Shown piece after piece: positions 1-17,998 of a stretch of DNA of 64,000 bases (its first letter is position 1; every line of letters begins with the position of its first letter). Source of the DNA: Spirochaetales bacterium. Lineage in GTDB: Bacteria > Spirochaetota > Spirochaetia > Treponematales > Treponemataceae. Below the pieces are notes generated by a model that ran no database searches, was not told the DNA's origin, and saw only the letters and a program-made list of their open reading frames with translations. The stretch covers positions 248,001 to 312,000 of the forward strand of contig QKEL01000008.1 of assembly GCA_003252395.1 (NCBI GenBank), in the 5' to 3' direction. The translations under genes and the position numbers were made by a program.

Positions 1-943
1 GGGCGGAAAGCCGGCAGGAGTATCGCCAGGCCAAGATGAGGGTCATGCCCAGTGACGGAAGCAGGAACAGGGCGAAAATCCAGATGCCGAGGAAGGGAAA
101 GTAGGGTTTGAGCGTGTCGATCACCCGCGCCCGCTCCCATGCCGAACGGACCGAGTCGAGCTTATCGTTGAAGGTTCCCGGAATCGCCGATGTATACACG
201 CACAGGTACACGCTGTTTCCGTACCGAACCTTCTCGCCCCAGCGCAAGAAGGGCTCGCCCTCGGCCAGCGAGAAGAGTCCGGCGGTAACCGAGTCTAGCC
301 GGTCTTTCGTCACGAAGGAGAGGGAATCGCCCGACTCCATAACCGGGCTCCGGGATATTTCCCCGTTTACCCCGGTTTCCAGATACACCTGACAGGCCAC
401 GGCGTGCCGGTCTATGGAACGGATCGCGGTCATCCATTCGGAGGGACGATTTTTCCAGGTCGAAATGGCGAGTCCGCTCAGGTACTTTTCCGAGACGGCA
501 TGGATATCGGTAACGCGCTCTTCCATGTACAGGTCGGCCATCTCGGCCGCCACGTTCATGGTTTCGGGAATCGACCGGTCAAACCAGCTCCCGAGGGCCT
601 CTGACGCGAACTTGCCGACGATAACCGATTCGGGTACCGCGACGCTGGCGAGCAAGAGGCAAAAGGAGAGGAATACGTTGCGCCTGAGGGGACTGGGGCC
701 TTCGGCGTGAAGCGAATCCGATACCGCCCCGACGAACAGAAAGCCGGTGAGGACAAGGAGTCCCAGGGGGGCGGCGACCAAAAAGAAAAGGCCCTCGGGA
801 GAACTGAAGAGCGCCGAGGAGAATACGCCGCCAAAACTGCGGTCCGCCACCGCGTACGCGGCGGCGACCACCAGGGCGTATACCAGCGCCAGAAAGGGGA
901 ACGAAAAAAGGCCTCTAAAGGGCCCGTTCGCGGGTTCTTTCAA
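1..943 (-). CDS. NtrY-like sensor histidine kinase, N-terminal part (runs off the window)
   Basis: The reading frame is open from a TTG at 943 to the window edge, giving about 314 residues. It shows three closely spaced hydrophobic helices in roughly the first 100 residues, an extracytoplasmic domain of about 150 residues, then a fourth helix (FPFLGIWIFALFLLPSLG) followed by the start of a cytoplasmic part. This layout matches NtrY-type nitrogen sensor kinases, in which HAMP, PAS and kinase domains would follow; those lie outside the window, so the kinase assignment is inferred. The TTG overlaps the ptsH stop (TGA 940-942) and has GAGG just upstream, which points to translational coupling with HPr. 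The nearby sigma-54 gene fits an Ntr-type role. It could instead be another multi-pass receptor such as a guanylate cyclase or phosphatase. Confidence 0.6.
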   Translation of the reverse strand, partial: MKEPANGPFRGLFSFPFLALVYALVVAAAYAVADRSFGGVFSSALFSSPEGLFFLVAAPLGLLVLTGFLFVGAVSDSLHAEGPSPLRRNVFLSFCLLLASVAVPESVIVGKFASEALGSWFDRSIPETMNVAAEMADLYMEERVTDIHAVSEKYLSGLAISTWKNRPSEWMTAIRSIDRHAVACQVYLETGVNGEISRSPVMESGDSLSFVTKDRLDSVTAGLFSLAEGEPFLRWGEKVRYGNSVYLCVYTSAIPGTFNDKLDSVRSAWERARVIDTLKPYFPFLGIWIFALFLLPSLGMTLILAWRYSCRLSA

Positions 944-1206
944 TCTTCCTCGAATTTGTTCTCGAACAGGGCGTTAATGGCCTCAACGGCCTCTTTTTCG
1001 TCCGCCCCGTCGGCGACCAGGGTAAGCTCGGTGTTATAGCTTGCCGCCATGGTGATGATACCCATGATCGACTTGGCGTTGATCCGGGTGTCCTCCCGCT
1101 CTATCAGAATTTCAGAGGCGAAGCGATTTGCGGTTTGCGCGATAAGCGCGGCGGGACGCGCGTGAATTCCGGCCCGATTCTTGATGGTAACGTTCTTCGT
1201 GGTCAT
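940..1206 (-). CDS. ptsH: HPr phosphocarrier protein
   Basis: This is an 88-residue HPr. The active-site histidine is at the canonical position 15 (AGIHARPAA), and the regulatory serine is at position 46 within KSIMG. In the PTS, His15 carries phosphate from enzyme I to sugar permeases, and Ser46 is phosphorylated by HPr kinase. The start at 1206 is chosen because AAGGAA lies just upstream; an in-frame upstream extension would overlap hprK. It follows hprK by 10 bases and overlaps the start of the sensor kinase gene, so the three are probably one operon. No enzyme I or EII gene is in the window, so HPr may act here mainly as a regulator, as proposed for other spirochaetes. Confidence 0.96.
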   Translation of the reverse strand: MTTKNVTIKNRAGIHARPAALIAQTANRFASEILIEREDTRINAKSIMGIITMAASYNTELTLVADGADEKEAVEAINALFENKFEED

Positions 1207-1216
1207 TTCGGTTCCT

Positions 1217-2206
1217 TCAATATGAGTCATCGACGCCGTAGTACGGCGCGCGGGCAGCGTCGGTCTCGATCCACTTGAGGACATTCTGGTTGAATTCCTT
1301 CGCGGAAAAGTAGCCCATGCTTTTGAGCCGCTCGTTCATGGCGGCGGTCTCGAGGATGATGGGGATATTTCGCCCCGGTTTCACGGGAATCTCGAGTTTC
1401 GGAATGCGAACCCCGAGAATCTCCATGGTCAATTCGTTGGTGCCGAGCCGGTCGTATACCTTGTTCGCGTCCCACTCCTCGAGTTTGGCGACGAACTGCA
1501 CTTCCTTGCGCTCGCGGATGGAGCCCACGCCGTAAAGCTGGGTGATATTGATAATGCCCAAGCCGCGGATTTCCATGTGGTGCCCGATAATCTTGTTCGC
1601 GCCCTGGCCCACCAGGCTGTTCCCGTTGACGCAGGAAATTTCCACCACGTCGTCGGCCACGAGCCGGTGCCCGCGCTCGATGAGCTCCAGGGCGGTCTCG
1701 CTCTTCCCGACCCCGGAATCGCCCAGGATAAGGATGCCCAAACCGTATACTTCCACGAGCACGCCGTGGATCGAAACCTTGGGCGCGAAAATATTGGAAA
1801 GGATGCGGAGTATCCGGGCGGAGAATTCGCTCGAATCCAGGCCGGTAACGAGGACCGGGCACCCCGCTTCCTCCGCGATATTCACGAAGGCCTCGGGGGG
1901 CTCAAGGTTATGGGTAAAAATACAGCAGGGTATGGGATAGGAAAAGAGTTGCCGCAGCGATTCAAGCTTGTCTTCGCCGACTATCTTGCCCAGATAGGCC
2001 ACCTCGCCCCTTCCGAACAACTGTACCCTCTGAAACGCGAAGGAGTCGTAAAAGCCCGACAGGGCCAACCCGGGCCGGTTGAGGTCCGGAATGGTAATGT
2101 CGCGCACGAGTCCCCTTCTGCCGCAAACGCACCGGAGGTCCAGGGAATCGTGTTCCTTGAGGTTCAAGCCCAAGAGGTCGAGCACGGAAAACCGTTTCAA
2201 AGCCAT
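1217..2206 (-). CDS. hprK: HPr kinase/phosphorylase
   Basis: This 329-residue protein has the HprK layout: an N-terminal domain (residues 1-130) and a C-terminal kinase domain with Walker A GDSGVGKS at 162-169. The family signature MEIRGLGIIN is at 211-220 and the conserved PVKPGRN loop at 275-281. The enzyme phosphorylates HPr on Ser46 using ATP or pyrophosphate and reverses this with phosphate, which links glycolytic state to carbon regulation. Its direct neighbour is ptsH, the substrate gene. No Shine-Dalgarno precedes the ATG. Instead a TTTACA-N18-TATAGT promoter ends 5 bases before it, so it probably has its own leaderless transcript. Confidence 0.97.
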   Translation of the reverse strand: MALKRFSVLDLLGLNLKEHDSLDLRCVCGRRGLVRDITIPDLNRPGLALSGFYDSFAFQRVQLFGRGEVAYLGKIVGEDKLESLRQLFSYPIPCCIFTHNLEPPEAFVNIAEEAGCPVLVTGLDSSEFSARILRILSNIFAPKVSIHGVLVEVYGLGILILGDSGVGKSETALELIERGHRLVADDVVEISCVNGNSLVGQGANKIIGHHMEIRGLGIINITQLYGVGSIRERKEVQFVAKLEEWDANKVYDRLGTNELTMEILGVRIPKLEIPVKPGRNIPIILETAAMNERLKSMGYFSAKEFNQNVLKWIETDAARAPYYGVDDSY

Positions 2207-2241
2207 ACCTGACTATATCCTCAGGGACGCCCTCTTGTAAA
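2207..2241 (-). promoter_or_regulatory. Predicted leaderless promoter of hprK
   Basis: On the minus strand the -35 TTTACA lies at 2236-2241 and the -10 TATAGT at 2212-2217, with an 18-base spacer. Only five bases separate the -10 from the ATG at 2206, so transcription should begin at or within a few bases of the start codon. There is no Shine-Dalgarno. Confidence 0.5.
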
Positions 2242-2288
2242 GCCAAGCCCGTCGGAGATTCCCAAGATCCTCCCGCGGGTCCCCTTCC

Positions 2289-2579
2289 CTACTTCTTTTC
2301 CTGTATCTTGTCTTTTTCCTTCTTGATCTTTTGGTCCAGCACGTCCATCAATTTGTTCACCCCCGCGTTGAAGTCGAAATCCTCGGCGGATACGTGGGCG
2401 TTTCCGCCCCAGCGGAAATTGACGGTGCATTCCATGGAAAACTTCTTCTCGAATTTGAAATTGAAGAGGACGTCGGTAATCAGGTCATCGGCGTATTTAA
2501 TCCGCTCGACTTTCTTGTCAACGAACGCGCGCTGATCATCATCCATGGTAAATTTAACGGCCTGCACATTGATGTTCAT
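2289..2579 (-). CDS. hpf: Ribosome hibernation promoting factor, short form
   Basis: This 96-residue protein matches the HPF/YfiA fold: an N-terminal MNINVQAVKF strand, a helix beginning DDDQRAFVDKKVERI, and basic central strands ending in a short acidic/lysine tail. It lacks the long C-terminal dimerisation domain, so it is the short form that helps make inactive 100S ribosomes or protects 70S ribosomes under stress. The ATG at 2579 is chosen because GGGGAGG precedes it; an upstream in-frame ATG would overlap rpoN. The rpoN-hpf order is the classical one seen in proteobacteria, here followed by hprK-ptsH. Confidence 0.92.
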   Translation of the reverse strand: MNINVQAVKFTMDDDQRAFVDKKVERIKYADDLITDVLFNFKFEKKFSMECTVNFRWGGNAHVSAEDFDFNAGVNKLMDVLDQKIKKEKDKIQEKK

Positions 2580-2649
2580 GATGAACCTCCCCAAGATTCT
2601 TTGAATGGTCCCCGCAACCGGGGTTACGTAAATAATAATACCCTTTCCG

Positions 2650-4086
2650 CTATCTTTCAAACGAAGACTTTATATCGAGCTCCGAACGGTATTTCGCCAC
2701 GGTGCGGCGCGCGAGCTTAATGCCCCGCAGGGCCAACTGCTCCACGATTTTCTGGTCGGACAGGGGCCCGCTCGCCGCCTCGATGATTTGGCGCACCGTT
2801 TCCTTTACGCCCTCCTTGGAAAAGCGGCCTGAGCTGTATGCCTCGCCGCTTCGGGGGACGGAACCGACCTGATTCGAGAAAAAGTACTTGAGCTCGAAAA
2901 TGCCCCATTCGCACTGCAGATACTTACCGTTGGCCGCCCGGGACACGGTGGCCTCGTGCATGCCAATTTCCTCGGCGATATCCTTCATTCGCAAGGGGGC
3001 GAGACGGGCCGGCCCGTAGGCGAAGAAATCGCACTGAAAGACCACCAGGGCGCGGGCGAGCTTCAGTATCGTATGGTTTCGCCGGGAAAGGCTATTCATG
3101 AACCATCGGGCTTCCTTAACCGCCTCTCGGCTGAAATCCCGGCTCGCCTTGTCGGCGGCCCCTTCCCCGGTACCCGACTCAAGTTCCATGAAAAACGGGG
3201 AAACGCCCAGGACGGGAATGACTTCGTCGTTTATGGTCACCGTATAGTTGTCCTCCGTTTTCCGAACGATCACGTCGGGAACGACGTACGAGCCCGGGTC
3301 CGTGGAAAAGCGCCTGCCGGGAAAGGGGTCTAAGTGCCGGATTATGTCGAATATTTCCTCGGCCTCCGCGAGATCCACGCGGAAAGAGAGGGAGCTGTCC
3401 CGCGCGGACGCGGCCTTCACGAGGCTTTCGGGGCGTCCCTTGGCCAGCAGCTCTATGTGGCTTTCAAGGATGGCCGCCGCCTTCGCGACCGATTCGGGGC
3501 GAAAGGCCTGCGCGCCGTCAGGGGTTTCGGACAGGGAACGTTCCAGGAGCCGCGCCTGAACGGCAAGGGATTCCTGAAAGCCGGAGGTAGCGCAACCCGC
3601 CGGGTCGAGTGCCCGCACGGTATCAAGGACGGAGCGCAGCAGGGCTTCGTCGTCGGCGCCGGGCAGCTCCGCGGGCGACGATTCGTGAAAGCCGTCACGA
3701 TCCAGGTTTTGCACCACCAATTCGGCGAGGGCCCGTTCCTCCGTCCCCAGGGAAAGCTCTCCCAATTGGGCTAAAAGGCGTTCCTGAAGGGTTTCGTCGC
3801 GGGCAAGCGCCCCTTCGATAAAATCTCGGTGATCGTCGGCGGCCAGCTGGTTGGGAGTTCGGGAGGAAACGCGCACGCCACCGGGTTCCAGGGATCGGAT
3901 CGGCGCGTCGGAGCGGCCGAAGGGGTCGGAAACGACCTCCAGGGCGGGGTTCTTTTCCACCTCATCGAGAATCCGTTCCCGCAGGTCCGCGAAAGGCATG
4001 CCCATCAGCTTGATGGACTGCACGAGCTGGGGACTCAGCGTGAGGCGCTGTTGCTGTACGAGATTTTGCCGTTGGCCCTGGATCAT
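2650..4086 (-). CDS. rpoN: RNA polymerase sigma-54 factor
   Basis: This 478-residue protein has the full sigma-54 layout. A Gln-rich activator-interaction region is at the N terminus (residues 1-50, including LTLSPQLVQSIKLM). It is followed by an acidic linker, the core-binding region, a helix-turn-helix near IGMHEATVSRAANGKY, and the RpoN box ARRTVAKYRS at 459-468, which contacts the -24 promoter element. It directs transcription of genes needing AAA+ activators, often nitrogen, envelope or motility genes. The neighbouring NtrY-like kinase fits. No Shine-Dalgarno is present; a TTGACC-N17-TATGTT promoter ends 9 bases before the ATG. Confidence 0.97.
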   Translation of the reverse strand: MIQGQRQNLVQQQRLTLSPQLVQSIKLMGMPFADLRERILDEVEKNPALEVVSDPFGRSDAPIRSLEPGGVRVSSRTPNQLAADDHRDFIEGALARDETLQERLLAQLGELSLGTEERALAELVVQNLDRDGFHESSPAELPGADDEALLRSVLDTVRALDPAGCATSGFQESLAVQARLLERSLSETPDGAQAFRPESVAKAAAILESHIELLAKGRPESLVKAASARDSSLSFRVDLAEAEEIFDIIRHLDPFPGRRFSTDPGSYVVPDVIVRKTEDNYTVTINDEVIPVLGVSPFFMELESGTGEGAADKASRDFSREAVKEARWFMNSLSRRNHTILKLARALVVFQCDFFAYGPARLAPLRMKDIAEEIGMHEATVSRAANGKYLQCEWGIFELKYFFSNQVGSVPRSGEAYSSGRFSKEGVKETVRQIIEAASGPLSDQKIVEQLALRGIKLARRTVAKYRSELDIKSSFER

Positions 4087-4124
4087 TGTAGTTTAAACAT
4101 ACGGAACTGGCCCGAGCCGGTCAA
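4087..4124 (-). promoter_or_regulatory. Predicted near-leaderless promoter of rpoN
   Basis: The minus-strand -35 TTGACC is at 4119-4124 and the -10 TATGTT at 4096-4101, separated by exactly 17 bases. The ATG follows after 9 bases, so the 5' leader would be about 2-3 bases. It lies back-to-back with the promoter of the DUF1015 gene. Confidence 0.55.
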
Positions 4125-4150
4125 GGACGTCTGGCCGACCCGGAAACGTC

Positions 4151-4186
4151 TTGCCGGTTTGGCCGTTTTTACGTATCATGCCGGAC
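4151..4186 (+). promoter_or_regulatory. Predicted leaderless promoter of the DUF1015 gene
   Basis: The -35 TTGCCG is at 4151-4156 and the -10 TATCAT at 4174-4179, with a 17-base spacer. Seven bases then lead to the ATG at 4187. There is no Shine-Dalgarno, which supports 4187 as the start of both transcript and protein. Confidence 0.5.
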
Positions 4187-5515
4187 ATGAACCATACCGA
4201 ATCGTTGCGCCAACGCGGGGTTGCCGTACCCGAAATCCTTTTGCCGAAGGCGGGGCTTGACCTATCGAAGTGGGCGGTAATCGCCTGCGATCAGTATACG
4301 CAAGACCGCGAGTACTGGGAAAATGCGCGGGAAAGGGCTGCAGGAGCCCCCTCCGCCCTGGGCATGATCCTTCCCGAGGTATACCTCGAAGACGGCGATC
4401 GGTCCGAACGGCTTTCCTCCATCCGGAAAACCATGCGCGCCTACATGGAATCGGGCGTATTCGCCCCTCCCCTGAAGGGCTTTACCTATATCGAGCGGGT
4501 TACCGCGTACGGGCGCACGAGAAAGGGCTTGGTCGCCGCGATCGACCTCGAGGCCTATGAGTGGAAACCCGGCACCGCGGCGCCGATCCGCGCTACCGAG
4601 GCCACCATCGTGGACCGAATCCCGCCCCGTATGGAAATACGGCGGGGCGCGCCCCTAGAGTCGCCCCACATCATGCTCTTGGTCAACGACCCGGACCGCC
4701 TTTTGGTGGAAGCCGCGGGAAACCGCGTCCGGTCTGAAACGCCCGTATACGCGACGAAATTGGAACCCGACGCGGGCTCCGTAACGGGCTGGAAGATAGA
4801 GACGAAAGCCGGTATCGCGGCGGTCGCCGAAGCCGTGCGCCGCCTGTCCGATGCCGGGACGGGACCGGACGGTTCCACCTTCCTGTTCGCCGTGGGCGAC
4901 GGAAACCATTCCCTGGCCACCGCGAAGGCGGTATGGGACGAGTTCAAGGCCCAAAACGCCGCGCGCTTCGCCTCGGGCGCCCTTGATCGGGAGAATCACC
5001 CGGCCCGCTTTGCCCTGGCGGAAATCGTGAACCTGTACGACGAAGGGCTGACCTTCGAGCCAATCCACCGGGTCCTGTTCGGGACCGACGGTAAAACCCT
5101 CGCCGCGTTCCTCGCCTCCCGCCTGGGCGGTACCCTTTCGGCGACGGAAAGCGGCGAAAGGCTGGAAGCCCTGGTCGGCGACGAAGGCGTCACCCGCTTC
5201 GGCTTCGTCTCCGCCGACGGTCTCGCCTGCCTTGAAACCCCCAGCCCGCTCCTCGCGGTGAGCCGCTTGCAGCCCGCGCTGGACGATTTCGTGGCGGAAC
5301 GCCCCGGTGTGTCCATCGATTATATTCATGGCGCCGAAGAGGTATTCAGGCTGGGCGGGAAGGAAAACGCGGTGGCCATCCTGTTGCCCCCGGTGGAAAA
5401 GGACAGTTTCTTTTCCACTATAGCCTCGGGCGGGCCCTTGCCGCGCAAGAGCTTCTCCATGGGAGAGGCGAGCGAGAAACGCTATTATCTTGAATGCCGC
5501 CGGCTTTTCGACTGA
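4187..5515 (+). CDS. DUF1015 family protein
   Basis: This protein of about 442 residues matches the DUF1015 family. Visible family marks are an N-terminal CDQYTQDREYW stretch, a central VGDGNHSLATAKAVWDE block and a C-terminal DYIHG block. Function is not firmly established. Members often sit near serine or cofactor metabolism genes and have been suggested to bind nucleotides, which cannot be tested here. The start at 4187 is preferred over upstream in-frame ATGs at 4151 and 4178 because the homologous region begins there and a promoter ends 7 bases upstream. It is divergent from rpoN and appears to be transcribed alone. Confidence 0.85.
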   Translation: MNHTESLRQRGVAVPEILLPKAGLDLSKWAVIACDQYTQDREYWENARERAAGAPSALGMILPEVYLEDGDRSERLSSIRKTMRAYMESGVFAPPLKGFTYIERVTAYGRTRKGLVAAIDLEAYEWKPGTAAPIRATEATIVDRIPPRMEIRRGAPLESPHIMLLVNDPDRLLVEAAGNRVRSETPVYATKLEPDAGSVTGWKIETKAGIAAVAEAVRRLSDAGTGPDGSTFLFAVGDGNHSLATAKAVWDEFKAQNAARFASGALDRENHPARFALAEIVNLYDEGLTFEPIHRVLFGTDGKTLAAFLASRLGGTLSATESGERLEALVGDEGVTRFGFVSADGLACLETPSPLLAVSRLQPALDDFVAERPGVSIDYIHGAEEVFRLGGKENAVAILLPPVEKDSFFSTIASGGPLPRKSFSMGEASEKRYYLECRRLFD

Positions 5516-5577
5516 AAAACCTGGCGGGATACGGTACGCCATGGTACATTTGAAGTATCAGGTCAGGGGGATTCGCG

Positions 5578-6411
5578 ATGGGATTTGAGTTGGGGCGTAA
5601 GGTGTTTTTCCTTTATCCGCCGAGCGTGGTACGGGATGAGCTCATTTCTCGCCTTCTCGAACAGGAATACGAAGTGTACATGCTCAGGGACATCGCCATG
5701 GCGGACCGTTTGCTCGCCATGTTCCCGGCGTCCATCGTATTCGTCAACATCGACGCGGGAAAATCGGAAAGCGAGTGGGAAGACTGGATTCGCGCCAAGT
5801 TGGCCAATCCCGCCCTTTCCGGGGTCGGAATCGGCATACTCACCTACAATCAGGACGAGAACCTGCAAAAAAAATACCTGATGGATATCGGCATTCAATG
5901 CGGGTTCGTGAAACTGAAACTCGGCCTGGAAGAGAGCACCAAGATACTGCTTTCCACCCTGCAGGCCAACGAGGCGAAAGGGCGCAGGAAATACGTCCGG
6001 GCCAATTGCGCCGACGATTCCCTCACGGCGATCAACCTCCGGGAAGGGGCCATCACCGCGACGGGAAAGATACAGGACATTAGCGTCGTGGGTTTTTCCT
6101 GCATCCTCGACCCGGATCCCGCCTTCAAGAAGAACACGGTGCTCCACGACATTCAGCTCAAGCTCCGGGCCAACCTCGTAAAGATCGAGGCGGTGGTCTT
6201 CGGGGCCCGCATGGTCGAGGACCGCACGCAGTACGTCATGCTACTCGCGCCGCGAACCGAACCGGTCGTTCGCGACAAGATCAGGAACTATATTCAGTAC
6301 GCCCTGCAAAGCGACATAGAGCAGCTCGCGGTCTCCGGCGAGATTCCGGCAGCCGCGGCGGAAGCCCCGGCCGAGGCCGATTTACCCGAGATCGACGAAG
6401 CAGAATCCTGA
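5578..6411 (+). CDS. PilZ-domain protein with N-terminal receiver-like region
   Basis: This 277-residue protein has two parts. Residues 5-125 look like a degenerate response-regulator fold (hydrophobic strands FFLYPP, SIVFVNID and GIGILTYN, no clear phosphoacceptor site). Residues 130-240 form a PilZ domain with the c-di-GMP binding signature: R137-x3-R141 (RRKYVR), then D167-x-S169-x2-G172 (DISVVG). PilZ domains bind c-di-GMP and change partner activity. The tail (245-277) is Ala/Glu-rich. GGGGGA precedes the ATG. The next gene starts 18 bases downstream on the same strand, so the two are likely co-transcribed. Confidence 0.85.
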   Translation: MGFELGRKVFFLYPPSVVRDELISRLLEQEYEVYMLRDIAMADRLLAMFPASIVFVNIDAGKSESEWEDWIRAKLANPALSGVGIGILTYNQDENLQKKYLMDIGIQCGFVKLKLGLEESTKILLSTLQANEAKGRRKYVRANCADDSLTAINLREGAITATGKIQDISVVGFSCILDPDPAFKKNTVLHDIQLKLRANLVKIEAVVFGARMVEDRTQYVMLLAPRTEPVVRDKIRNYIQYALQSDIEQLAVSGEIPAAAAEAPAEADLPEIDEAES

Positions 6412-6429
6412 ACGTCCCGGATAGAGCGA

Positions 6430-7905
6430 ATGCAACAAGAACTGTACCATGAAATTTTCGGTTCCATCCTCGACCGCTCCGAGATGACCCCCTATCTCCT
6501 GCGAAACTGCGGGGGATACCACGAGGCGCTCTCGCGGGCGAACCGCATGCTGTCCAATCGCGGTTTCGACCTAGACGGCGACGATATCGGCGAGGGCGAG
6601 CTGGAACGGGCGCGGGGCTACGTTTCGAGCGCCATTGCCTTCACGCTCCGTTGGCTGTTGCCCTCGCTGAACCGCCAGCTCGTCGACCTCGCCAAGCTGG
6701 GCTCCCCCTCGGCGGGCAATTACGAGACGGCGGCCGAATCCCTCGCTAAAATTAACGCGCTCCTGAGCGACGGACCCTTCGCGGAGCTGGTCGCCGCCGA
6801 CCCGAGGCACCTATTCCTGCTCTCGTCTTCCGCAAAGTATCCCGGATTGTTTACCGGATATCCGGGCGGTGACATTGCCGTGCCCCGACAATGGCGCATC
6901 GCCGCCTGCGCGGTGCTCAAAATGTGCCACCTGATCAAATCCGTGGAAGAGGACAGCAGGGACATCAACGATTACGCGCGCTTGGGCCTCCACCTTGAGT
7001 CACGCGGCGTGGCGCTCACCGATCTGTGGTCCTTCGACTGGAACGACCCCTCCCTCATTCCCCCCGACGAGAGCGGCAGGATCGCCTACGTAAAGATTCG
7101 CGCCTTCTTCAGGAAGCTCGCCCAATCCATGGTGTATGACCAAGCGAGAAAGACCTGGGCTTTCGATTCCGGGGACGGCGTGCGGGTGGACGTGGTGGAC
7201 CTGAAGGCCCGGCTAAAAAGCCCGGAAAGCATGTTCTCGAAGCTCGGCAAGGACGCGGAGGAAACCGCCACGAGCATCCGCGACATACTGGCCCTAACCT
7301 TCATCATCCGCAACCGGGAAGATTCCCTTACCCTGTTCCATGCCCTGCAAAAGCGGGGGGTAATACTGCAGGAGAATACCCGTTCCACGTCCATTACCCA
7401 AACCCTGTTCGCGACGCCACTGGACATGCGCGACGCGGTCCGCGAGCTGATGATCAACCTGAACCGGAGCGCGGGATTTCCCGGCGAGCCCGATTCGGCG
7501 GAAGTTCGGGAACAGGCCGAGCGGTTCTACGCGGCCCTCGGGGCGCACGCGGCGGTGAACCCCCATACGGCGGACCGGCATAGGAAAATACAGTGCAAGA
7601 TTAACGTATCGCTGCCGGTCCACGTTGATCCCGTCGACGGCAGGGTAATCCTTCCGGGCACCGACGCCTACGAGCGGCGCTTCCGGGACCGGGTGGAAAC
7701 CAGCCAGCAAACGCTGCCGGTGGAACTGCGCATTTCCGACCGCGCGAGCTGGGAAGAATCGGAGCAAAGGGGAGAGGCCCACCACGAGGCCTATAAGTTC
7801 CGCCAGCTCGCGAGCCTCGCGGACCGGCTGTTCAGACCCCTTTTTTCCTTCGGGGAATACGCCTTCACGCAGCTTCGGCAGGACCAGGAACGGCTGTTCG
7901 GGTAA
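6430..7905 (+). CDS. Uncharacterised protein with a RelA/SpoT synthetase-like C-terminal half
   Basis: No enzyme is firmly recognised in this 491-residue protein. The N-terminal 240 residues are helical. The C-terminal half follows the order of motifs in the (p)ppGpp synthetase domain. A basic block KARLKSPESMFSKLGKD lies at 259-275. SIRDILALTFII follows at 282-293, with D285 in the position of the catalytic aspartate. The strand PVELRI has E432 where synthetases have the glutamate of EIQIRT. Then comes EAHHEAYK at 449-456, resembling the AAHWAYK block. A clear G-loop tyrosine is not seen, so substrate or activity may differ. It is probably co-transcribed with the PilZ gene upstream. The RelA/SpoT reading is my inference from motif order. 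Confidence 0.6.
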   Translation: MQQELYHEIFGSILDRSEMTPYLLRNCGGYHEALSRANRMLSNRGFDLDGDDIGEGELERARGYVSSAIAFTLRWLLPSLNRQLVDLAKLGSPSAGNYETAAESLAKINALLSDGPFAELVAADPRHLFLLSSSAKYPGLFTGYPGGDIAVPRQWRIAACAVLKMCHLIKSVEEDSRDINDYARLGLHLESRGVALTDLWSFDWNDPSLIPPDESGRIAYVKIRAFFRKLAQSMVYDQARKTWAFDSGDGVRVDVVDLKARLKSPESMFSKLGKDAEETATSIRDILALTFIIRNREDSLTLFHALQKRGVILQENTRSTSITQTLFATPLDMRDAVRELMINLNRSAGFPGEPDSAEVREQAERFYAALGAHAAVNPHTADRHRKIQCKINVSLPVHVDPVDGRVILPGTDAYERRFRDRVETSQQTLPVELRISDRASWEESEQRGEAHHEAYKFRQLASLADRLFRPLFSFGEYAFTQLRQDQERLFG

Positions 7906-7952
7906 AAAAAGTCCGGGTAAATAAGCGCGGATAAGACGTTCGGGTAAAAAAA
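7896..7952. repeat. Direct repeat GTTCGGGTAAAAAAA around a gene end
   Basis: A 15-base direct repeat occurs at 7896-7910, covering the stop codon of the preceding gene, and at 7938-7952. A shorter CGGGTAAA copy lies between them near 7913. The right-hand A-run reads as T8 on the minus strand and could help end transcription of the tRNA gene. The repeat may only be slippage or a local duplication. Confidence 0.5.
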
Positions 7953-8019
7953 AGGGCCGGTCCGCGCTTCGCATGGCTTTCGCCCGGAGCTCTGTGACCG
8001 CGCCCGTTTCCCGTACCGT

Positions 8020-8103
8020 TGCCGGCGATCGGACTCGAACCGATACACCCGTGAAGGCGGCAGATTTTGAGTCTGCTGCGTCTACCAATTTCGCCACGCC
8101 GGC
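8020..8103 (-). tRNA. tRNA-Leu (anticodon CAA)
   Basis: The minus strand folds as a class II tRNA. The acceptor stem GCCGGCG/CGCCGGC ends at 8103 and 8021, with discriminator A at 8020. The anticodon stem GCAGA/TCTGC encloses the loop CTCAAAA, so the anticodon is CAA (8067-8069), reading UUG leucine codons. A long variable arm and a T-arm with GGTTCGAGTCC follow. The length of 84 bases is usual for leucine tRNA. The 3' CCA is not encoded. It stands alone with no other tRNA nearby. Confidence 0.95.
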
Positions 8104-8214
8104 GCAACGAAAGAAAGTCTACCACAAAAAGCATCGCAATGTCTACGCGCATTTACCCCCGGGAGCGGAGGCCGCCCGGCTCGATTTGTTATATATTGTA
8201 AGCGGAGGATAACG

Positions 8215-8637
8215 ATGGATTTTAACATAACGACCCCCGCCCTGCTTTTTTCGGCCATATCGCTGTGGATGCTCGCCTTCACGAACCGCTTTCTTGCCGT
8301 GGCCAACCTGGTACGGCAGTTTACGGCCCTCTACGTCGAGACCCGCGACGAGGGCATTTACCGGCAATTGAACAATTTCAGGATTCGCCTCGCCTTGATC
8401 AAATATACCCAGTTCTTCGGGGTCTTGAGCTTCCTCTTTTGCGTCGTTTGCATGTTCCTCATTTTTTCCGGCCTCATCCTGGCCGCGGAAGCGGTATTCG
8501 GGGCGAGCCTTGTCGCGCTCATGGTTTCCCTGGGTCTCTCCCTGGCGGAGGTGTTTCTTTCCATCGACGCCCTGAAGCTCGAGCTGGAAAAAACCGAGAA
8601 GGCACACCGGGAATCGGTTCGCGGCCCGCGCCCGTAA
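8215..8637 (+). CDS. DUF2721 family membrane protein
   Basis: This 140-residue protein matches DUF2721. An N-terminal helix (LLFSAISLWMLAF) is followed by the family-typical RFLAVANLVRQF and a cytoplasmic stretch. Two closely packed membrane helices come next at about 65-110, and then a charged coiled tail (LELEKTEKAH). The role is unknown; the family is small, membrane-bound and widespread. GGAGG lies before the ATG. It seems to be a single-gene unit between the divergent tRNA-Leu and the convergent glutamine synthetase. Confidence 0.85.
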   Translation: MDFNITTPALLFSAISLWMLAFTNRFLAVANLVRQFTALYVETRDEGIYRQLNNFRIRLALIKYTQFFGVLSFLFCVVCMFLIFSGLILAAEAVFGASLVALMVSLGLSLAEVFLSIDALKLELEKTEKAHRESVRGPRP

Positions 8638-8676
8638 GCCAACGCGCGGAAGACCGTATTCGCGCGATAGCGCGCC

Positions 8677-8706
8677 CGTTCAAGGGCTTCAACGCGCGTT
8701 CAAGGG
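8677..8706. repeat. Short direct repeat CGTTCAAGGG
   Basis: Two exact copies of CGTTCAAGGG occur at 8677-8686 and 8697-8706, 20 bases apart, in the non-coding gap after the DUF2721 gene. No function is evident; apart from the glutamine synthetase terminator the gap shows nothing else. Confidence 0.4.
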
Positions 8707-8733
8707 GCGGGACGCGGCAGTGCGGCGGATCCG

Positions 8734-8765
8734 AAAAAAAAGCCGATCCCCGTCGGGGGATCGGC
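8734..8765 (-). terminator. Rho-independent terminator of type III glutamine synthetase
   Basis: A perfect 10-base-pair stem (8742-8751 with 8756-8765) closes a four-base loop. On the minus strand it is followed directly by a run of eight T. It lies 26 bases after the glutamine synthetase stop codon. Confidence 0.9.
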
Positions 8766-8791
8766 AGCATTTCGCGCAGAGACGAAACCTA

Positions 8792-10885
8792 TCAGATATT
8801 GAACAGAAGTTCCTGGTAGGTCGGCATGGGCCAGTACTCCCTCGGCAGAAGCTTCTCGAGCTTGTCGACGGGGGCGCGGAGGGCCAGCATCGCGGTCGTC
8901 ACGTTGTCGCGGAAAGCCTCGGCCTGCTTCTGGACGTCGGCGACGCCGTGGGCGGCGGAGCGGGCGGCCTCGACCTTATCGGCCGCAACGGCGGCTTCCT
9001 CGATCAGCGCGCTCACTTCGGAGAGCTTCTTCTTGAGGGAGGCGGACTTCACCCCGGAACCCTCGAGGGTCTGGAGCTGGGCCGCGAGCTCGACGGCGTA
9101 GTCGGAGCAGACGGGGAGAATTTCGCGGGTAGCCATCTCGAAGGCGACTCCGGCCTCGATATTGATCTGCTTGGAGTATTTCTCCAGCACGATGTCGAGG
9201 CGCGCGTGAATTTCTTCCTTGGTGAAGATCTTGTGCTTGGTGAACATCTTGACGGAATCTTCCTTGGCGAAATAGGGCCAAGCCTCCACGGAGCTGGTCA
9301 GGTTGGGCAGTCCGCGTTTTTTGGCCTCGGCGACCCAATCCTCGGTGTACCCGTTTCCGTTGAACACGACACGGCTGTGCTTCTTCCAGGTATCGGTCAC
9401 GATTTCCTTGACAGCGGCGGTGAGATCCTTGGCTCCCTTGAGCTTCGGGAGGAACTCGTCGAGAACCTCGGCGACGATGGTGTTGAGCACGAAGTTGGGT
9501 CCCGCGATGGATTCGCTCGAGGGAACCATGCGGAATTCGAACTTGTTGCCGGTAAAGGCGAAGGGGCTCGTGCGGTTGCGGTCGGTGAGGTCTTTCGGCA
9601 GCTTGGGCAGGGTGGTGACGCCGAGCTCAAGCTTTTTGCCCTCGCCGGAGGTAATGGCCTTCCCGGTGGCGATGCCCTCGAAGATGTCCTGCAGCTGTTC
9701 GCCGAGGAAGATCGAGATGATCGCGGGAGGGGCCTCGTTGGCGCCAAGGCGGTGGTCGTTACCGGTATTCGCCGCGGAAAGGCGAAGGAGGGGCGCGTAG
9801 GTATCCACGGCCTTGATGACCGCGGAGACGAACACGAGGAAGGTAAGGTTCTCTTCCGGAGTCTTCCCGGGATTCATGAGATTCATGCCGTCGTCGGTGC
9901 CGATGGACCAGTTATTGTGCTTTCCGGAGCCGTTCACGCCCGCGAAGGGCTTCTCGTGGAGAAGGCAAACGAGGCCGTGGCGCTTGGCAACCTTTTTAAG
10001 GGTCTGCATGACGAGCTGGTTCTGGTCGGTGGCCACGTTGGATATGCCGTAAATGGGGGCAAGCTCGAACTGGTTCGGCGCGACTTCGTTATGCTGGGTC
10101 TTGGAGGGAACGCCGACTTTCCACAGCTCGTTGTTCACGTCGGTCATGTACGCCGCGACGCGCTCGGGGATCTTTCCGAAGTAGTGATCCTCGAGTTCCT
10201 GGCCCTTGGGGGGCAAGGCGCCGAATACGGTACGGCCGGTGAGCTTGAGGTCCTGGCGCTCGGCGAAATATTTCTCGTCCACCAGGAAGTATTCCTGCTC
10301 GGGCCCAACGGAGGAAATAACGCGTTTGGAGGTGGTATTTCCCATGGCGCGAAGCACGGCGATGGAAGAATTGCTGACCGCCTGCATGGAGCGAAGGAGC
10401 GGGGTCTTTTTGTCCAGGGCTTCGCCGTGGTAACCGACGAATGCGGTGGGGATCACGAGGGTCTTGCAGTGGCCTTCATCGTTGATGTAGGCGGGGCTGG
10501 TAACGTCCCACGCGGTGTATCCGCGGGCCTCGAAGGTCGCCCGGAGACCGCCGGAGGGGAAGCTCGACGCGTCGGGCTCGCCCTGAATAAGCTCCTTGCC
10601 GGAGAATTCGAGGATCGCCAGGCCGTCGGGCGTGGGGGAAATGAAGGAATCGTGCTTTTCGGCGGTAAGGCCGGTCATCGGCTGGAACCAGTGGGTGTAG
10701 TGGGTTGCGCCCTTCTCGATGGCCCAGTCTTTCATGGCGTTGGCAACTACTTCGGCGCAGGCCACGGTGAGTTCGCATTCGCCGGCCTGAACGGCCTTGA
10801 CTTCCTTGTAGATCGCCTTGGGAAGCCGATCCCTCATGACCGAATCGCCAAACGCGTTAATGCCGTACATTTCATTAAAGGGCAT
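8792..10885 (-). CDS. glnN: Glutamine synthetase, type III
   Basis: This 697-residue protein has the length and motifs of type III glutamine synthetase, the long dodecameric form found in Bacteroides, cyanobacteria and spirochaetes. It makes glutamine from glutamate, ammonia and ATP in the cytoplasm. Visible marks are the N-terminal GSIII block with [12 protein letters not shown], the VGPEQEYF metal site, the ATP/glutamate region [12 protein letters not shown], and [17 protein letters not shown] in the catalytic core. AGGAGGT precedes the ATG and a strong terminator follows. With gltB-gltD in the same window it completes GS-GOGAT ammonia assimilation. The leader of about 70 bases is unusually long for this window. 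Confidence 0.97.
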
Positions 10886-10954
10886 AGAGTACCTCCTGGT
10901 ATCCGATGGCAGGACATACGCCTTTGCATGTCACAACGCTCATAATTTTGTATA

Positions 10955-10984
10955 TTTATACCATAAAGTCGTATATATGTTCAA
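10955..10984 (-). promoter_or_regulatory. Predicted promoter of glutamine synthetase
   Basis: On the minus strand a -35 TTGAAC (10979-10984) and a -10 TATAAA (10955-10960) are spaced by 18 bases in an AT-rich stretch that stands out from its surroundings. This implies a 5' leader of about 60-65 bases before the AGGAGGT ribosome site. No GG/GC sigma-54 element was found. Confidence 0.5.
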
Positions 10985-11009
10985 TCTCGCATTTTGTTTC
11001 AGGGATTTT

Positions 11010-12002
11010 TTACCGAGTATTTATCGAAACTTTGGGATATTCCCCCTCCAGAGCGGCCCAAATCTCCGGGTCTTCCTGACCCAATCGCCAAAAAGAAAGC
11101 CGGGTCACGCCCCTGGATCGGTATATATCGGCCCTTTGGGCGACGGAATGGGAATCCTCGTAATACACTTTGACCTTTACGGTCTCGCTGTATTCGAACC
11201 AGGGAATTCCCTCGGTTCGGTTTATGTCCACAATGCCCTTATCGGTGATCAAAGTGCCTAAACTGCTGAACTTATAGGCCTTGGAGGGGTTCACGTCGCC
11301 CCAGGCCCTGCCGTAAAAGGGCATGCCCATGACCAGTTTATCGGTTCCTACCGCCGAGGAGGCATAGGAGGCGACCCTGTCGCACCACGCGAGGGAAGCC
11401 ACGGGCCCCGGGGCGCTGCCGCTCCAATGTTCATCGTAGGCCATGACGATCAACCGGTCCACCACGCGGACGATGGGCCCGTATTCATAGGGGTCGGCGA
11501 TCTTTCGGGTTCTGGCAGGAAGGGCGACGCTCAGGGTCTTCCCGCCGGGATAGCGGTTCAGCGCAAGGTCGAGCGCGGTAAGGAACGCAAGGTAATTACC
11601 CGCATCGGCCGGCGGCACCGCCTCGAAATCGATTTGCACGCCTTCGAAGGGGGCGGCGGCGGCGGCGATGGATTCCACCAGCCGGTCGCGAATGCCGAAT
11701 TGCGGGTCAAGGCAAAAATGAGTGAGGGCTTGATTGGAGGTTTCCGCGACGACCATATGGGTTCGGCCGCCCCAGGAGCCGAGCTTGCTCCGCCCGGGCA
11801 CGCCCACCAGGGCCCCGTACGCGTTCATTCCCGCGCCGAAGTACGCCACGTCGGTCACGGGCGGGGCGGTTTCCAAAAAACGCTCCTCACCCGACAGGAG
11901 ATAGCCCCATATTTCGGTAAAGTCCCCCGCGAAGAGGGCCTGAGGGCCTACGATAGCGAATAGTGCAAGAAAGAGGCCAATCGCCCCGATGCGGTATTTC
12001 AT
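11010..12002 (-). CDS. Glycoside hydrolase family 18 protein, secreted
   Basis: This 330-residue protein has a signal peptide (MKYRIGAIGLFLALFAIVGPQALFA) and a GH18 barrel. The catalytic strand GVQIDFEAV carries the DxE pair of the family's DxxDxDxE motif, with the final Glu as proton donor. Later strands include IVMAYDEHW and LVMGMPFYGRAW, as in spore-cortex and cell-wall GH18 enzymes such as YaaH/SleL. It probably acts on N-acetylglucosamine-containing polymers in the periplasm, such as peptidoglycan or chitin fragments. The start at 12002 is chosen over 12032 for the GGAGAGG upstream and the proper signal peptide. Confidence 0.85.
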   Translation of the reverse strand: MKYRIGAIGLFLALFAIVGPQALFAGDFTEIWGYLLSGEERFLETAPPVTDVAYFGAGMNAYGALVGVPGRSKLGSWGGRTHMVVAETSNQALTHFCLDPQFGIRDRLVESIAAAAAPFEGVQIDFEAVPPADAGNYLAFLTALDLALNRYPGGKTLSVALPARTRKIADPYEYGPIVRVVDRLIVMAYDEHWSGSAPGPVASLAWCDRVASYASSAVGTDKLVMGMPFYGRAWGDVNPSKAYKFSSLGTLITDKGIVDINRTEGIPWFEYSETVKVKVYYEDSHSVAQRADIYRSRGVTRLSFWRLGQEDPEIWAALEGEYPKVSINTR

Positions 12003-12052
12003 GGTTGCCGTTCCTCTCCAATAGTTTAGCACGGAGCGGGAGGAAACGGGGC

Positions 12053-12083
12053 AAAAAAGGCCGGTCGACTAAGGACCGGCCTT
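12053..12083 (-). terminator. Terminator of uracil permease gene
   Basis: A 10-base-pair stem (12057-12066 with 12074-12083) closes a 7-base loop. The outer A bases at 12053-12058 read as T6 on the minus strand. It lies about 60 bases after the permease stop codon. Confidence 0.85.
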
Positions 12084-12139
12084 ATGCCCGGCGCGGGGAA
12101 ACCGTTCCGCCGAACCGGACGCGAAAAGGGGGACGCCCC

Positions 12140-13423
12140 TTAGTCTTCCACCGCCGTATCCACGGTTTTCGGAAGCACCAGATTAAGCACGATTCCCACC
12201 AAGGTCGCCAGCGCGACGCCCGCGAGCTGGAACTGAAGGTCGGCGCCGAGGGAGAACGCGAGCTTGCCGCCGCCGATGCCGATTACCAGGATAACGGAAC
12301 TGACGGTCAGGTTCCGCTTGCACTTGAAATCCACCCCGGTTTCCACCAGGGTACGAAGGCCGCTGGAGGCGATGATTCCGAAAAGGAGCATCGAGATCCC
12401 GCCCATGACCGGGGTCGGGATGGTCTGGATAAGGGCGCCGAACTTGGTGACGAAGGAGAGGCACACGGCGATGACCGCCGCGCCGCCGATGACCCACACG
12501 GAATACACGCGGGTAATCGCCATAACGCCGATGTTCTCGCCGTAGGTGGTATTGGGCGGGCCGCCCCAGAAGGCCGCCCAGGCGGTGGCGAGGCCGTCGC
12601 CGAGGAGGGTGCGGTGCAGGCCGGGCTTCTTGAAGAAGTCGGCTCCGACCACGCGGCTGGTGACCATGACGTCGCCGAGGTGCTCGGTAATGGTGGCCAG
12701 GGAAACGATTACGAAGGTAAGGCAGGCCACGAGGTTAAACTTGGGCAACGCGAAGATCGGAACGCCGAACCAGGAGGTTTCGTTCACCTTCGCGTAATCG
12801 ATCAGGTGATACGCGGGAAAGAAGAATCCCATGATGAGGACGAATAGATAGCCGGAGATCAGGGCGATGAGGATCGGGATAACGTTGAAAAAGCCCTTGA
12901 AGAAGATGGTCGCCACGATGGCGACGATGAGGGTAAAGGCCGCCACGGACAGGGCCACGAGGCTGTACGATCCGTCCGCGCCGTTCATGGCCATGCTCAT
13001 GGCGGTGGGAGCGAGGTTCAATCCGATAACCACGATGACCGAGCCGATCACCACGGGGGGCAGGACCCGGTCGAGCCACGCCGTACCGGCGAGCTTGATG
13101 ATTCCCGCGACGAGGGCGTAAAAAAGGCCGGCGACCACCGCGCCGCCGAGCGCGTAGGGCATGCCGTACGCTCCTGAAATGGCGATGATCGGCGGGATAA
13201 AGGCGAACGAGGAGCCAAGGAAGGCGGGAACCTGCGCACCGGTTATCAGGATATACAGCAGCGTTCCGGAACCCGCGGAAAAAAGGGCGGCCGTGGGGCT
13301 TAAGCCGGTCAGGATGGGCACGAGCACCGTCGCTCCGAACATCGCGAATACGTGCTGAAAGCTAAGGGGAATCCATTTCCCCAGGGGCAGGCGTTCGTTA
13401 ACGCCGATTATTTTATGTGACAT
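12140..13423 (-). CDS. uraA: Uracil/xanthine permease, NCS2 family
   Basis: This 427-residue integral membrane protein has about 12-14 hydrophobic segments and NCS2 marks. These are the N-terminal LPLGKWIPLSFQHVFAMFGATVLVP, the GSSFAFIPP half-helix, the central ATITEHLGDV (with the substrate-binding Glu) and the GPPNTTYGENIGVMAITRV block. It carries out proton-coupled nucleobase uptake, most likely uracil. GGAGG lies about 11 bases before the ATG, and a possible TTGCCC-N18-TATCCT promoter lies in the 72-base upstream gap. It is a single-gene unit with its own terminator. Confidence 0.95.
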   Translation of the reverse strand: MSHKIIGVNERLPLGKWIPLSFQHVFAMFGATVLVPILTGLSPTAALFSAGSGTLLYILITGAQVPAFLGSSFAFIPPIIAISGAYGMPYALGGAVVAGLFYALVAGIIKLAGTAWLDRVLPPVVIGSVIVVIGLNLAPTAMSMAMNGADGSYSLVALSVAAFTLIVAIVATIFFKGFFNVIPILIALISGYLFVLIMGFFFPAYHLIDYAKVNETSWFGVPIFALPKFNLVACLTFVIVSLATITEHLGDVMVTSRVVGADFFKKPGLHRTLLGDGLATAWAAFWGGPPNTTYGENIGVMAITRVYSVWVIGGAAVIAVCLSFVTKFGALIQTIPTPVMGGISMLLFGIIASSGLRTLVETGVDFKCKRNLTVSSVILVIGIGGGKLAFSLGADLQFQLAGVALATLVGIVLNLVLPKTVDTAVED

Positions 13424-13495
13424 GTTTTTAAGAACCTCCGGCGGAAGGATACCACGGGATGGGACCGGAGGGCAATTTAATAAATTCCGAATTCG

Positions 13496-14209
13496 TCAGG
13501 AAGCCAGGGGATTCGGCAATTCAGGGTCGGGAAGATCGGGATTCGGGCGCTCGGGATCGAATTGAGGCGTGACGAACCGCATGATCATCTTTACCCGCGA
13601 AAGCGCCCCGGGAAGGGCCTCGCGCAGGGGACGGCGCACGTGGGCGGTATCCGGGTCCAAGCCAACCACGCGGGCGGTAAGGTCCGACATGATCGGGGGC
13701 ACCGTGCCGAAACGGGCCAGGAGTTCTTCCTCGCCGTACTGGACCCGCCGTTCCAAACCGCCGTCCAAGCCTTCCAGCGGGAGGAATTTACAGGGTTTCC
13801 AGCGGGGCCGGCCGTCCTTGCCCCGGTCGCCGGTATACGCGAAAAGTCGGCAAATCAGGGTTCTGCCGCCGTATACGGTACAATGGTACGGATCGTCCGG
13901 ATTGAAAAACAGGCACCCGTTTTCGGGATCTGATCGCGGGGAGGCGAAACGGCCTTCAAGTAAGGCTTCCGCGCGGTCGCGAACGGCCTTGTCGGGATTC
14001 GACAAAAACCAAAAGGCCAAATAGAGGGCCTCGCTTTCCAGCACGTCCGGTTCGAAATGAACGCAACAGGAGCCGCAGCCCTCGGCGCAGTGAAAGGGAC
14101 TCGCTTCCTTCCAACAAGACTGCGCGGTCTCGATATCCGCGAATACCGCGTCGAGCCCGCCCACGATTTCGGCGACCCTCGTTCCGCCCAGCCGTTCCAA
14201 ATCAAGCAT
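13496..14209 (-). CDS. YkgJ-type cysteine-cluster protein
   Basis: This 237-residue soluble protein belongs to the YkgJ/UPF0153 zinc- or iron-chelating family. The N-terminal CAEGCGSCCVHF, the mid-protein GCLFF and YHCTVYGGRTLICRLF, and the WKPCKF segment together supply the cysteines of the metal site. The function of the family is not established. Its C-terminal tail is unusual, with a PERPNPDLPDPELPNP-like proline/aspartate/asparagine run. GAGGG precedes the ATG. A TTGCGA-N18-TATATT promoter is predicted at 14282-14311. Confidence 0.85.
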   Translation of the reverse strand: MLDLERLGGTRVAEIVGGLDAVFADIETAQSCWKEASPFHCAEGCGSCCVHFEPDVLESEALYLAFWFLSNPDKAVRDRAEALLEGRFASPRSDPENGCLFFNPDDPYHCTVYGGRTLICRLFAYTGDRGKDGRPRWKPCKFLPLEGLDGGLERRVQYGEEELLARFGTVPPIMSDLTARVVGLDPDTAHVRRPLREALPGALSRVKMIMRFVTPQFDPERPNPDLPDPELPNPLAS

Positions 14210-14514
14210 GACAGATTACCCTCGGGAGAAGCCCGATCGGCTTAAAAAGCCCTGGCTTGCAGGATCTTCTCCGTAAGCGGGAATATAGCATGCCTGATTC
14301 AACCGTCGCAAGCGGCGCCGCGTCCCGCCATAGGCGAAAGGCGTATCCGAGGGCCTCACAACGGGACGGGAGGGGAATACAACGGTTAATTGTGCCCTTT
14401 TAAAGGGCTAGCCCTGTCTTTTGAAGGGCTTGCGACTTACACTTGATAATGAACGGACAAAGGGGAGACCATCAGGATAAAAAGTTTCTATCGCCGCGAA
14501 TCGAGGAGTCAAAC
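14210..14514. other. Divergent regulatory gap between the YkgJ-type gene and the chemoreceptor
   Basis: This 305-base gap has no supported coding sequence. It holds a minus-strand promoter for the YkgJ-type gene (-35 TTGCGA 14306-14311, -10 TATATT 14282-14287). It also holds two inverted repeats at 14394-14430 and a plus-strand promoter for the chemoreceptor (-35 TTGAAG 14421-14426, -10 GATAAT 14445-14450). The middle part (14312-14390) shows no pattern I can name. Confidence 0.55.
14394..14430 (+). promoter_or_regulatory. Tandem inverted repeats, likely operator of the chemoreceptor gene
   Basis: The first element, 14394-14408, is a perfect palindrome GCCCTTT-T-AAAGGGC. The second, 14410-14430, is AGCCCT and AGGGCT around a 9-base centre. 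They share the GCCCT/AGGGC half-site and are 2 bases apart. The second overlaps the predicted -35 box at 14421-14426, a position suited to a repressor. Confidence 0.5.
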
Positions 14515-16398: not shown

Positions 16399-16425
16399 TC
16401 GGCGTTTACTCCGCATAGGTTCAAT

Positions 16426-16461
16426 AAAAAGGCCTTCCGGCGACGAACCGGAAGGCCCTTT
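16426..16461. terminator. Bidirectional terminator between the chemoreceptor and gltD
   Basis: A perfect 10-base-pair stem (16431-16440 with 16448-16457) closes a 7-base loop. It is flanked by A5 on the left and CTTTT on the right, so it can serve the plus-strand chemoreceptor and the minus-strand gltBD operon. Confidence 0.8.

Positions 16462-16542: not shown

Positions 16543-17998
<1,456 letters not shown>

Follow-up and report, generated by a model that had tools for sequence, protein, structure and literature searches.

Introduction

The RelA/SpoT homologues (RSH) have been divided into 30 subgroups (PMC3153485), and the part of that text covered here makes no mention of the family described below. 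Closest to the present subject are the canonical long enzymes (Rel, RelA and SpoT), the small alarmone synthetases RelP and RelQ (SAS2 and SAS1), and the tRNA pyrophosphokinases toxSAS and CapRel, for which an acceptor other than GDP is known. In SaRelP, the donor motif is formed by R78, K80, S84 and K88, and His190 binds ribose (PMC5794853). Here we examine a gene pair from a Spirochaetales bacterium, located within a stretch of 64,000 nucleotides (assembly GCA_003252395.1, contig QKEL01000008.1, positions 248,001 to 312,000; hereafter the window), in which a gene for a PilZ-type protein, P0001, is followed by one for a RelA/SpoT-synthetase-like protein that we call T.

5578..6411, + strand: PilZ-type gene, P0001, 277 residues (open reading frame; Pfam PilZ match below cut-off)
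6430..7905, + strand: T (P0002), 491 residues; helical N-terminal domain and RelA/SpoT-synthetase-like domain; relative of TIGR04552/04562

A sequence-only reading of this DNA had described the two as a pair with an 18-base gap, and both open reading frames lie at these coordinates, in the same direction and with that gap. All of the motifs that it named in T were likewise found, namely K259-x-R261-L-K263-S264-x2-S267-x3-K271, R284-D285, E432 and H451-H452-E-A-Y455-K456.

Results and discussion

A predicted RelA/SpoT synthetase fold in T

Structure prediction and profile comparison together support the RelA/SpoT synthetase fold that had been claimed for T. The best structural matches of the predicted model were alarmone synthetases. 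In profile-profile comparison, T matched TIGR04552 at 98.2% (E 4e-14, 300 columns), and TIGR04552 matched 17 canonical RSH proteins at 90.9% (E 1.2e-6) in an alignment extending over the synthetase domain from its donor motif as far as the closing AHxxYK. The TIGR04552 profile also reached solved RelSeq (1vj7; E 0.0011 for two stretches together, 0.17 for the better one alone) and solved RelP (6fgk; E 0.02). Direct comparison of T with RSH gave 0.8%, and a search of solved chains with the profile of T itself returned no relevant match; the relationship between T and RSH is thus transitive, running through TIGR04552. The Pfam RelA_SpoT model scored 19.9 bits on T, below its cut-off of 27, and 16.7-24.6 bits on four homologues.

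6430..7122, + strand: helical N-terminal domain of T, approximately residues 1-231 (fold searches: no confident match)

A hidden HD hydrolase was considered for this domain because the segment L-I-K-S-x-E-E-D-S resembles L-L-H-D-x-x-E-D-T, which we take to be an HD motif; profile comparison gave 0.2% and fold searches returned no confident match, so that the idea finds little support. No Pfam match to HD, TGS or ACT was found in T, which distinguishes it from the canonical long RSH enzymes, to whose synthetase domain it is linked through TIGR04552. With RelP and RelQ, T would share the synthetase fold, the donor motif and the Asp/Glu metal pair, but it lacks the G-loop tyrosine and the second adenine-stacking arginine of those enzymes and carries an extra helical domain as well as a long insert that comes after beta2 and before the loop.

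A conserved donor half and a rewritten acceptor half

The catalytic site of T was delineated by mapping SaRelP numbering onto it by motif, from the description in PMC5794853 rather than by direct alignment of SaRelP. Conservation was read from alignment A2, comprising T and 99 of 120 listed homologues (of 674 matches), with rows 51-88% identical to T; as the weaker matches among the 674 stand outside A2, the conservation is valid for this clade only. Alignments of RSH proteins covered 23 of the 32 RSH loci examined (17 in A4 and six in A5).

7210..7242, + strand: ATP-donor motif R261-x-K263-x3-S267-x3-K271 (SaRelP R78/K80/S84/K88); 100/100 A2 rows
7282..7284, + strand: D285, likely Mg ligand (SaRelP D107); 100/100 A2 rows, aligned via TIGR04552
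7558..7599, + strand: acceptor loop (G-loop) region N377-K390, with H384 at the site of the synthetases' base-stacking tyrosine
7723..7725, + strand: E432, predicted second catalytic acid (SaRelP E174); 100/100 A2 rows
7783..7797, + strand: H452-x2-Y455-K456, H452 being the likely equivalent of ribose-binding His190 in SaRelP (alignments and A2)

The donor half is nearly whole. R261, K263, S267, K271, D285, E432, H452 and Y455 are identical in every A2 row, and K274, at the site of SaRelP R91, is present in 95 of the 100. D285 and E432, proposed earlier as the catalytic pair, are therefore conserved across this clade, and in our alignments they fall on the catalytic acids of the synthetases. 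The second adenine-stacking arginine (SaRelP R112, five residues after the aspartate) is lost, with T290 in its place in 99 of 100 rows, while R261 is retained. The G-loop tyrosine (SaRelP Y151) has likewise gone, replaced throughout A2 by H384. Spacing identifies the site: N-x6-Y occurs in 13/13 rows of TIGR04552 (alignment A3, which holds 13 of 15 loci, L157 and the over-extended reading frame of L147 being out) and corresponds to N377-x6-H384 in all 100 rows of the T clade, where K386, Q388, C389 and K390 are also invariant. The G-loop had earlier been judged unclear because the acceptor half is rewritten in this way, and it can now be placed at N377-K390.

Taken together, a donor half that is nearly whole and an acceptor half that is rewritten yet strictly conserved suggest an active enzyme with a different acceptor rather than decay. 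Indeed, the uniform substitution of histidine for the acceptor-gripping tyrosine implies that T probably makes a different product. We propose that T is an ATP-dependent pyrophosphokinase of the RelA/SpoT fold that acts on an acceptor other than GDP or GTP and that an adjoining PilZ protein, where present, likely controls it; we give this proposal an even chance of being right. R261, K263, S267 and K271 would hold the phosphates of ATP, and D285 together with E432 would hold Mg. The rewritten loop (H384, K386, Q388, C389 and K390) would hold the acceptor, whose ribose 2'- or 3'-hydroxyl would attack the beta-phosphate, so that pyrophosphate would pass from ATP to the acceptor, conceivably a nucleotide or an RNA end. 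Where a PilZ gene adjoins that of T, a c-di-GMP (cyclic di-GMP)-binding PilZ protein would control the reaction. In this scheme the fold and the catalytic site are predicted, whereas the catalysis, the acceptor and any action of PilZ on T are inferred.

Alternatively, T might be a pseudo-enzyme, a sensor that works by binding ATP or some other nucleotide. That residues equivalent to R112 and Y151 are missing is in keeping with this; invariance of the metal acids and of the full R-x-K-x3-S-x3-K motif in 100/100 A2 rows exceeds what a pseudo-site usually needs, and we regard such a role as improbable.

T alongside the canonical alarmone synthetases

Synthesis of (p)ppGpp by T, in which the sequence-only reading had seen the motifs of a (p)ppGpp synthetase domain, is disfavored, since T has neither the tyrosine that grips the acceptor nor one of the two adenine-stacking arginines. 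It could be salvaged if H384 were to stack on guanine in the tyrosine's place, which would make the pair a c-di-GMP receptor and a small alarmone synthetase. The predicted synthetase fold, the retention of both metal residues and the general ability of histidine to stack on bases accord with this, but the arginine five residues beyond the aspartate is lost as well as the tyrosine, and nearly all genomes bearing T already have a canonical RSH match. We therefore think it unlikely. In 46/49 such genomes the canonical RelA_SpoT match was strong (E below 1e-38), contig ends having truncated a small number of the frames; among the remainder, G297 has a weaker, shorter type and G694 and G699 have neither. 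In the window's own genome, open frame 611 gives a strong RSH match and open frame 422 a further match to the synthetase. T is not the cell's usual alarmone synthetase.

A second RelA_SpoT protein is common to the spirochaete genomes with T (G000:C1:816269-816643 in L002, and L127, L132, L134, L136 and L137). It is 413-439 residues long (frame 518 in L127), and its C-terminal half resembles TPR repeats.

An RNA acceptor must also be weighed, in which case T would pyrophosphorylate RNA 3'-ends, as toxSAS and CapRel do on tRNA CCA, in the service of regulation rather than toxicity. These enzymes belong to the same fold class as T, and they set the precedent for an acceptor other than GDP. FaRel2, however, still has its loop tyrosine, Y128, according to the part of PMC11782079 covered, where T has histidine; PADLOC returned no match for T; and among the loci scanned the only tRNA genes immediately next to T are those of one syntenic block. 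We consider this reading doubtful.

A long clade beside TIGR04552 and TIGR04562

Among 7992 candidates scored, 674 homologues of T were recovered at E 1e-3 or better. Named genomes yielded 78 T loci, spread over Spirochaetota, Nitrospirota, methanotrophic Methylococcales, Myxococcota and a few further lineages. T is sparse, occurring in 2/296 genomes of Spirochaetota, in 10/148 from the phylum to which G307 (a Nitrospiraceae genome, L034) belongs and in 4/121 from the order of G310 (Methylobacter, L054), the starting genome being counted in each case. T belongs to a long clade beside NCBIfam TIGR04552/04562 and falls below both cut-offs (73.8 bits against 125 for TIGR04552; 71.4 against 140 for TIGR04562), as do its homologues P0003, P0026 and P0083. 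TIGR04552 exceeded its cut-off in 71 of 112 sampled genomes from the phylum of G302 (Myxococcota, L010) and in none of the 296 Spirochaetota genomes, nine of which gave weak matches, T included.

The two families and T share a layout of helical N-terminal part and synthetase-like domain, together with a C-x2-L-K-x3-H segment, the N-x6-(Y/H) loop and the E-x4-D and YKxRQ motifs. They differ in length, at about 490-500 residues for the T clade and about 350-400 for TIGR04552/TIGR04562, and in the loop tyrosine of the latter, which is histidine in T. TIGR04552-type proteins, common in Myxococcota and without a named function, would be placed in the RelA/SpoT synthetase superfamily; this placement, with one pinned rewritten site, yields a testable question for the enzyme, namely which acceptor it uses.

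No mention of TIGR04562 was found in the literature searched, and TIGR04552 appeared only in a mutation table, in the part of PMC9888234 covered. There, the Bdellovibrio TIGR04552 gene DOE51_RS08710 carries a small indel among the high-frequency mutations of one of six prey-evolved lines, all six of which survived starvation better (same part of PMC9888234).

A tree of T was built from 78 rows. L075 and L076, whose T frames are short, and L081, which duplicates the window, are not among them, and L070 is identical to L082. The T of a Fibrobacter metagenome-assembled genome (L018; contig of 4.7 kb) lies inside the spirochaete clade, by gene transfer or through a mis-binned contig.

P0001 as a likely c-di-GMP receptor

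P0001 comprises an N-terminal part of about 130 residues and a PilZ-type C-terminal part. Pfam PilZ matches residues 136-239 at 18 bits, below the cut-off of 22.5, as it does the PilZ neighbors of T in L007 and L003 (20.9 and 18.4 bits).

5986..6000, + strand: PilZ RxxxR motif, R137-R141 (alignment A7)
6076..6093, + strand: PilZ D-x-S-x2-G motif, D167-G172 (alignment A7)

The PilZ signature reported earlier is complete: R137, R141, D167, S169 and G172 are all present, and none of them varies among the 22 A7 sequences. This alignment holds the window protein and 21 of 28 length-filtered candidates, omitting three duplicates and L099, L105, L107 and L175, the last a 32% paralogue without the D-x-S-x2-G pattern. 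P0001 thus has the RxxxR and DxSxxG motifs in common with PilZ-domain c-di-GMP receptors and differs from them in its extra N-terminal part and its Pfam score. Relatives form a spirochaete family present in 55/296 Spirochaetota genomes. On its sequence, P0001 is likely to be a c-di-GMP receptor. Enzymes of c-di-GMP metabolism are abundant in the window's genome, with 41 GGDEF matches over cut-off.

PilZ and T in spirochaetes

The locus is bracketed by genes that serve as synteny markers, the name DUF1015 being our assumption.

4151..5515, + strand: DUF1015-like gene, upstream of the PilZ gene; synteny marker
8020..8103, - strand: tRNA-Leu(CAA), convergent with T and directly downstream; synteny marker
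L003 7468-7552 and L007 7524-7607: tRNA-Leu(CAA), convergent with T

Across the eight distinct spirochaete genomes with T (window, L003-L007, L012 and L070/L082), the genes for PilZ and T adjoin in two, the window (gap 18) and L007 (overlap 4). In L003 a chemoreceptor gene of opposite orientation comes between them. Orthologues of the PilZ protein lie elsewhere in the genomes of L004 (63% identity) and L005 (62%), and the genome of L012 has a fragment of one where a contig ends; the best PilZ match in L006's genome is 37% identical, and no orthologue was found in the L070/L082 genomes. The genome of L004 also has a block of DUF1015-like and PilZ genes without T (L172). In the T tree, the spirochaetes and the Fibrobacter genome form one clade, within which PilZ adjacency requires two changes. 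Conservation of the pair across spirochaetes was therefore not borne out. The idea of a two-messenger module loses that part of its basis, but a PilZ excess near T in Nitrospirota, described below, keeps it alive.

PilZ genes near T beyond spirochaetes

Proximity was assessed in 49 of the 78 T loci, with 29 methanotroph loci outside the test and the window not counted; expected values came from each genome's own PilZ count, from which the spirochaete PilZ type, being below the Pfam cut-off, may be missing. PilZ genes lay within 6 kb of T, in the flanks fetched, at 10/49 loci against 2.24 expected (P 3.5e-5 if loci are independent). Clustering, and exclusion of the spirochaetes that had prompted the idea, gave the following counts:

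All 49 loci, clustered at 75% identity: 8/29 clusters, 2.04 expected, P 2e-4
All 49 loci, clustered at 65%: 4/13 clusters, 1.31 expected, P 0.007
Spirochaetes excluded: 8/38 Nitrospirota-type loci, 2.04 expected, P 6e-4
Spirochaetes excluded, clustered at 85%: 6/32, P 0.011
Spirochaetes excluded, clustered at 80%: 6/25, P 0.007
Spirochaetes excluded, clustered at 75%: 6/19, P 0.0035
Spirochaetes excluded, clustered at 70%: 3/8, P 0.058

The eight Nitrospirota loci (L013, L015, L027, L034, L042, L057, L064 and L076) all have PilZ matches over the Pfam cut-off. One PilZ cluster (c10, five loci) covers at least four of them, L013, L027, L042 and L076, upstream or downstream of T. In three, the PilZ gene is on the same strand and less than 500 bases from T (L042, 447; L057, 425; L076, 89) against 0.11 expected, for a threshold chosen post hoc. 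Six of the eight genomes are rich in PilZ (29-42 matches), those of L057 and L064 having 14 and 17. The scan for further PilZ genes began after a second had been seen and so was not blind, although the hypothesis itself came from the earlier reading.

Canonical RSH loci of the same genomes served as a control, and PilZ genes were found at 2/46 of them (Fisher P 0.028 against 10/49); the 46 loci amount to 538 kb, some shortened by contig ends. Both genes were found with a hidden Markov model built from PilZ proteins of T loci (20.0 and 19.4 Pfam bits). Regular-expression hits in this control were judged false by eye, most of them presumably reflecting an alkylguanine-transferase motif. The PilZ excess near T is a moderate statistical one with clear exceptions and is no proof of function. 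A functional link between PilZ and T is possible and, if real, would connect c-di-GMP with another nucleotide signal.

The PilZ of L057 (4766-5512), upstream of T, has sub-cut-off C-terminal matches to the glycogen-binding modules CBM_48 and AMPK1_CBM.

Does PilZ control T?

Several observations weigh against the proposed control of T by PilZ. The pairing is not obligatory, and local scans (not Pfam scans) found no PilZ at the 29 methanotroph T loci. The L172 block has the DUF1015-like and PilZ genes without T. Furthermore, an rpoN-like gene (a name that we assume, as with DUF1015), the DUF1015-like gene and the convergent tRNA-Leu(CAA) accompany the pair, so that its adjacency could be a matter of shared synteny and nothing more. 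The PilZ neighbor may accordingly be unrelated to a stand-alone T, the pair being leftover synteny, which would be compatible with any of the enzymatic roles considered for T. In addition to the L172 block and the accompanying genes, this view draws on the wide variation among T partners (O-methyltransferase in 11/48, S1/CvfB, branching enzyme, SAM synthetase) and on the presence of T in 2/296 Spirochaetota genomes against 55/296 for the PilZ family. Against it stand the proximity of PilZ above background in another phylum, where the PilZ clusters differ from that of the spirochaetes, and the three same-strand genes within the post hoc limit. On balance, we would as readily accept an unrelated neighbor as reject it.

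Returning to the pyrophosphokinase proposal, it is tempting to speculate that T founds a c-di-GMP-gated class, activated by PilZ proteins of different families and making a new pyrophosphorylated signal through the histidine that replaces tyrosine and the KxQCK loop. One second messenger would then directly drive the synthesis of another, a prospect that we rate as a long shot. In the literature searched on PilZ or c-di-GMP with ppGpp or a small alarmone synthetase, titles and abstract openings described no gene pair like that of the window.

Other neighbors of T

A conserved operon partner was sought and none was found over the whole family, the O-methyltransferase of methanotrophs and the S1/CvfB protein of some Nitrospirota being clade-bound; in this survey the gene caller missed T in L005 and L063. 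For TIGR04552 proper in Myxococcota (15 loci, flanks of about 1.5 kb), no neighboring gene cluster occurred in more than four loci. With a defense or toxin-antitoxin role in mind, PADLOC was run and returned no match, and no antitoxin family by name occurs among the 25 of 60 T partner families listed. A link to tRNA, suggested by the tRNA-Leu(CAA) gene beside T, was rejected: in 48 loci, tRNA-Leu(CAA) stands beside T in L003 and L007, which with the window make up one syntenic block. A tRNA lies at some distance from T in L022 (tRNA-Thr) and L069 (tRNA-Gly), and the short flanks of 22 PilZ loci contain none. Rfam at the gathering threshold returned the tRNA alone, and no riboswitch, on window positions 1-20000.

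In L172, a 277-residue open reading frame (2264-3097, - strand) that is absent from the window lies between the DUF1015-like gene and the PilZ gene. An O-methyltransferase gene (c1) precedes T in 14 methanotroph loci (L036, L044, L029 and others) with gaps of -22 to 175 bases, often about 25, and Methyltransf_3 accounts for 11 of the 48 partner genes. In 11 loci it is preceded by a gene for a protein of about 1150 residues (c2); neither Pfam nor NCBIfam gave a match for the c2 protein of L036. Other partners differ again and include S1/CvfB and SAM synthetase. In four Nitrospirota loci that are related to one another (L008, L028, L048 and L065), the gene downstream of T encodes a CvfB-like S1 RNA-binding protein (c13). 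In L022, the gene immediately upstream of T (1691-3328) encodes a GH57 branching enzyme, as does one other of the 48 partner genes.
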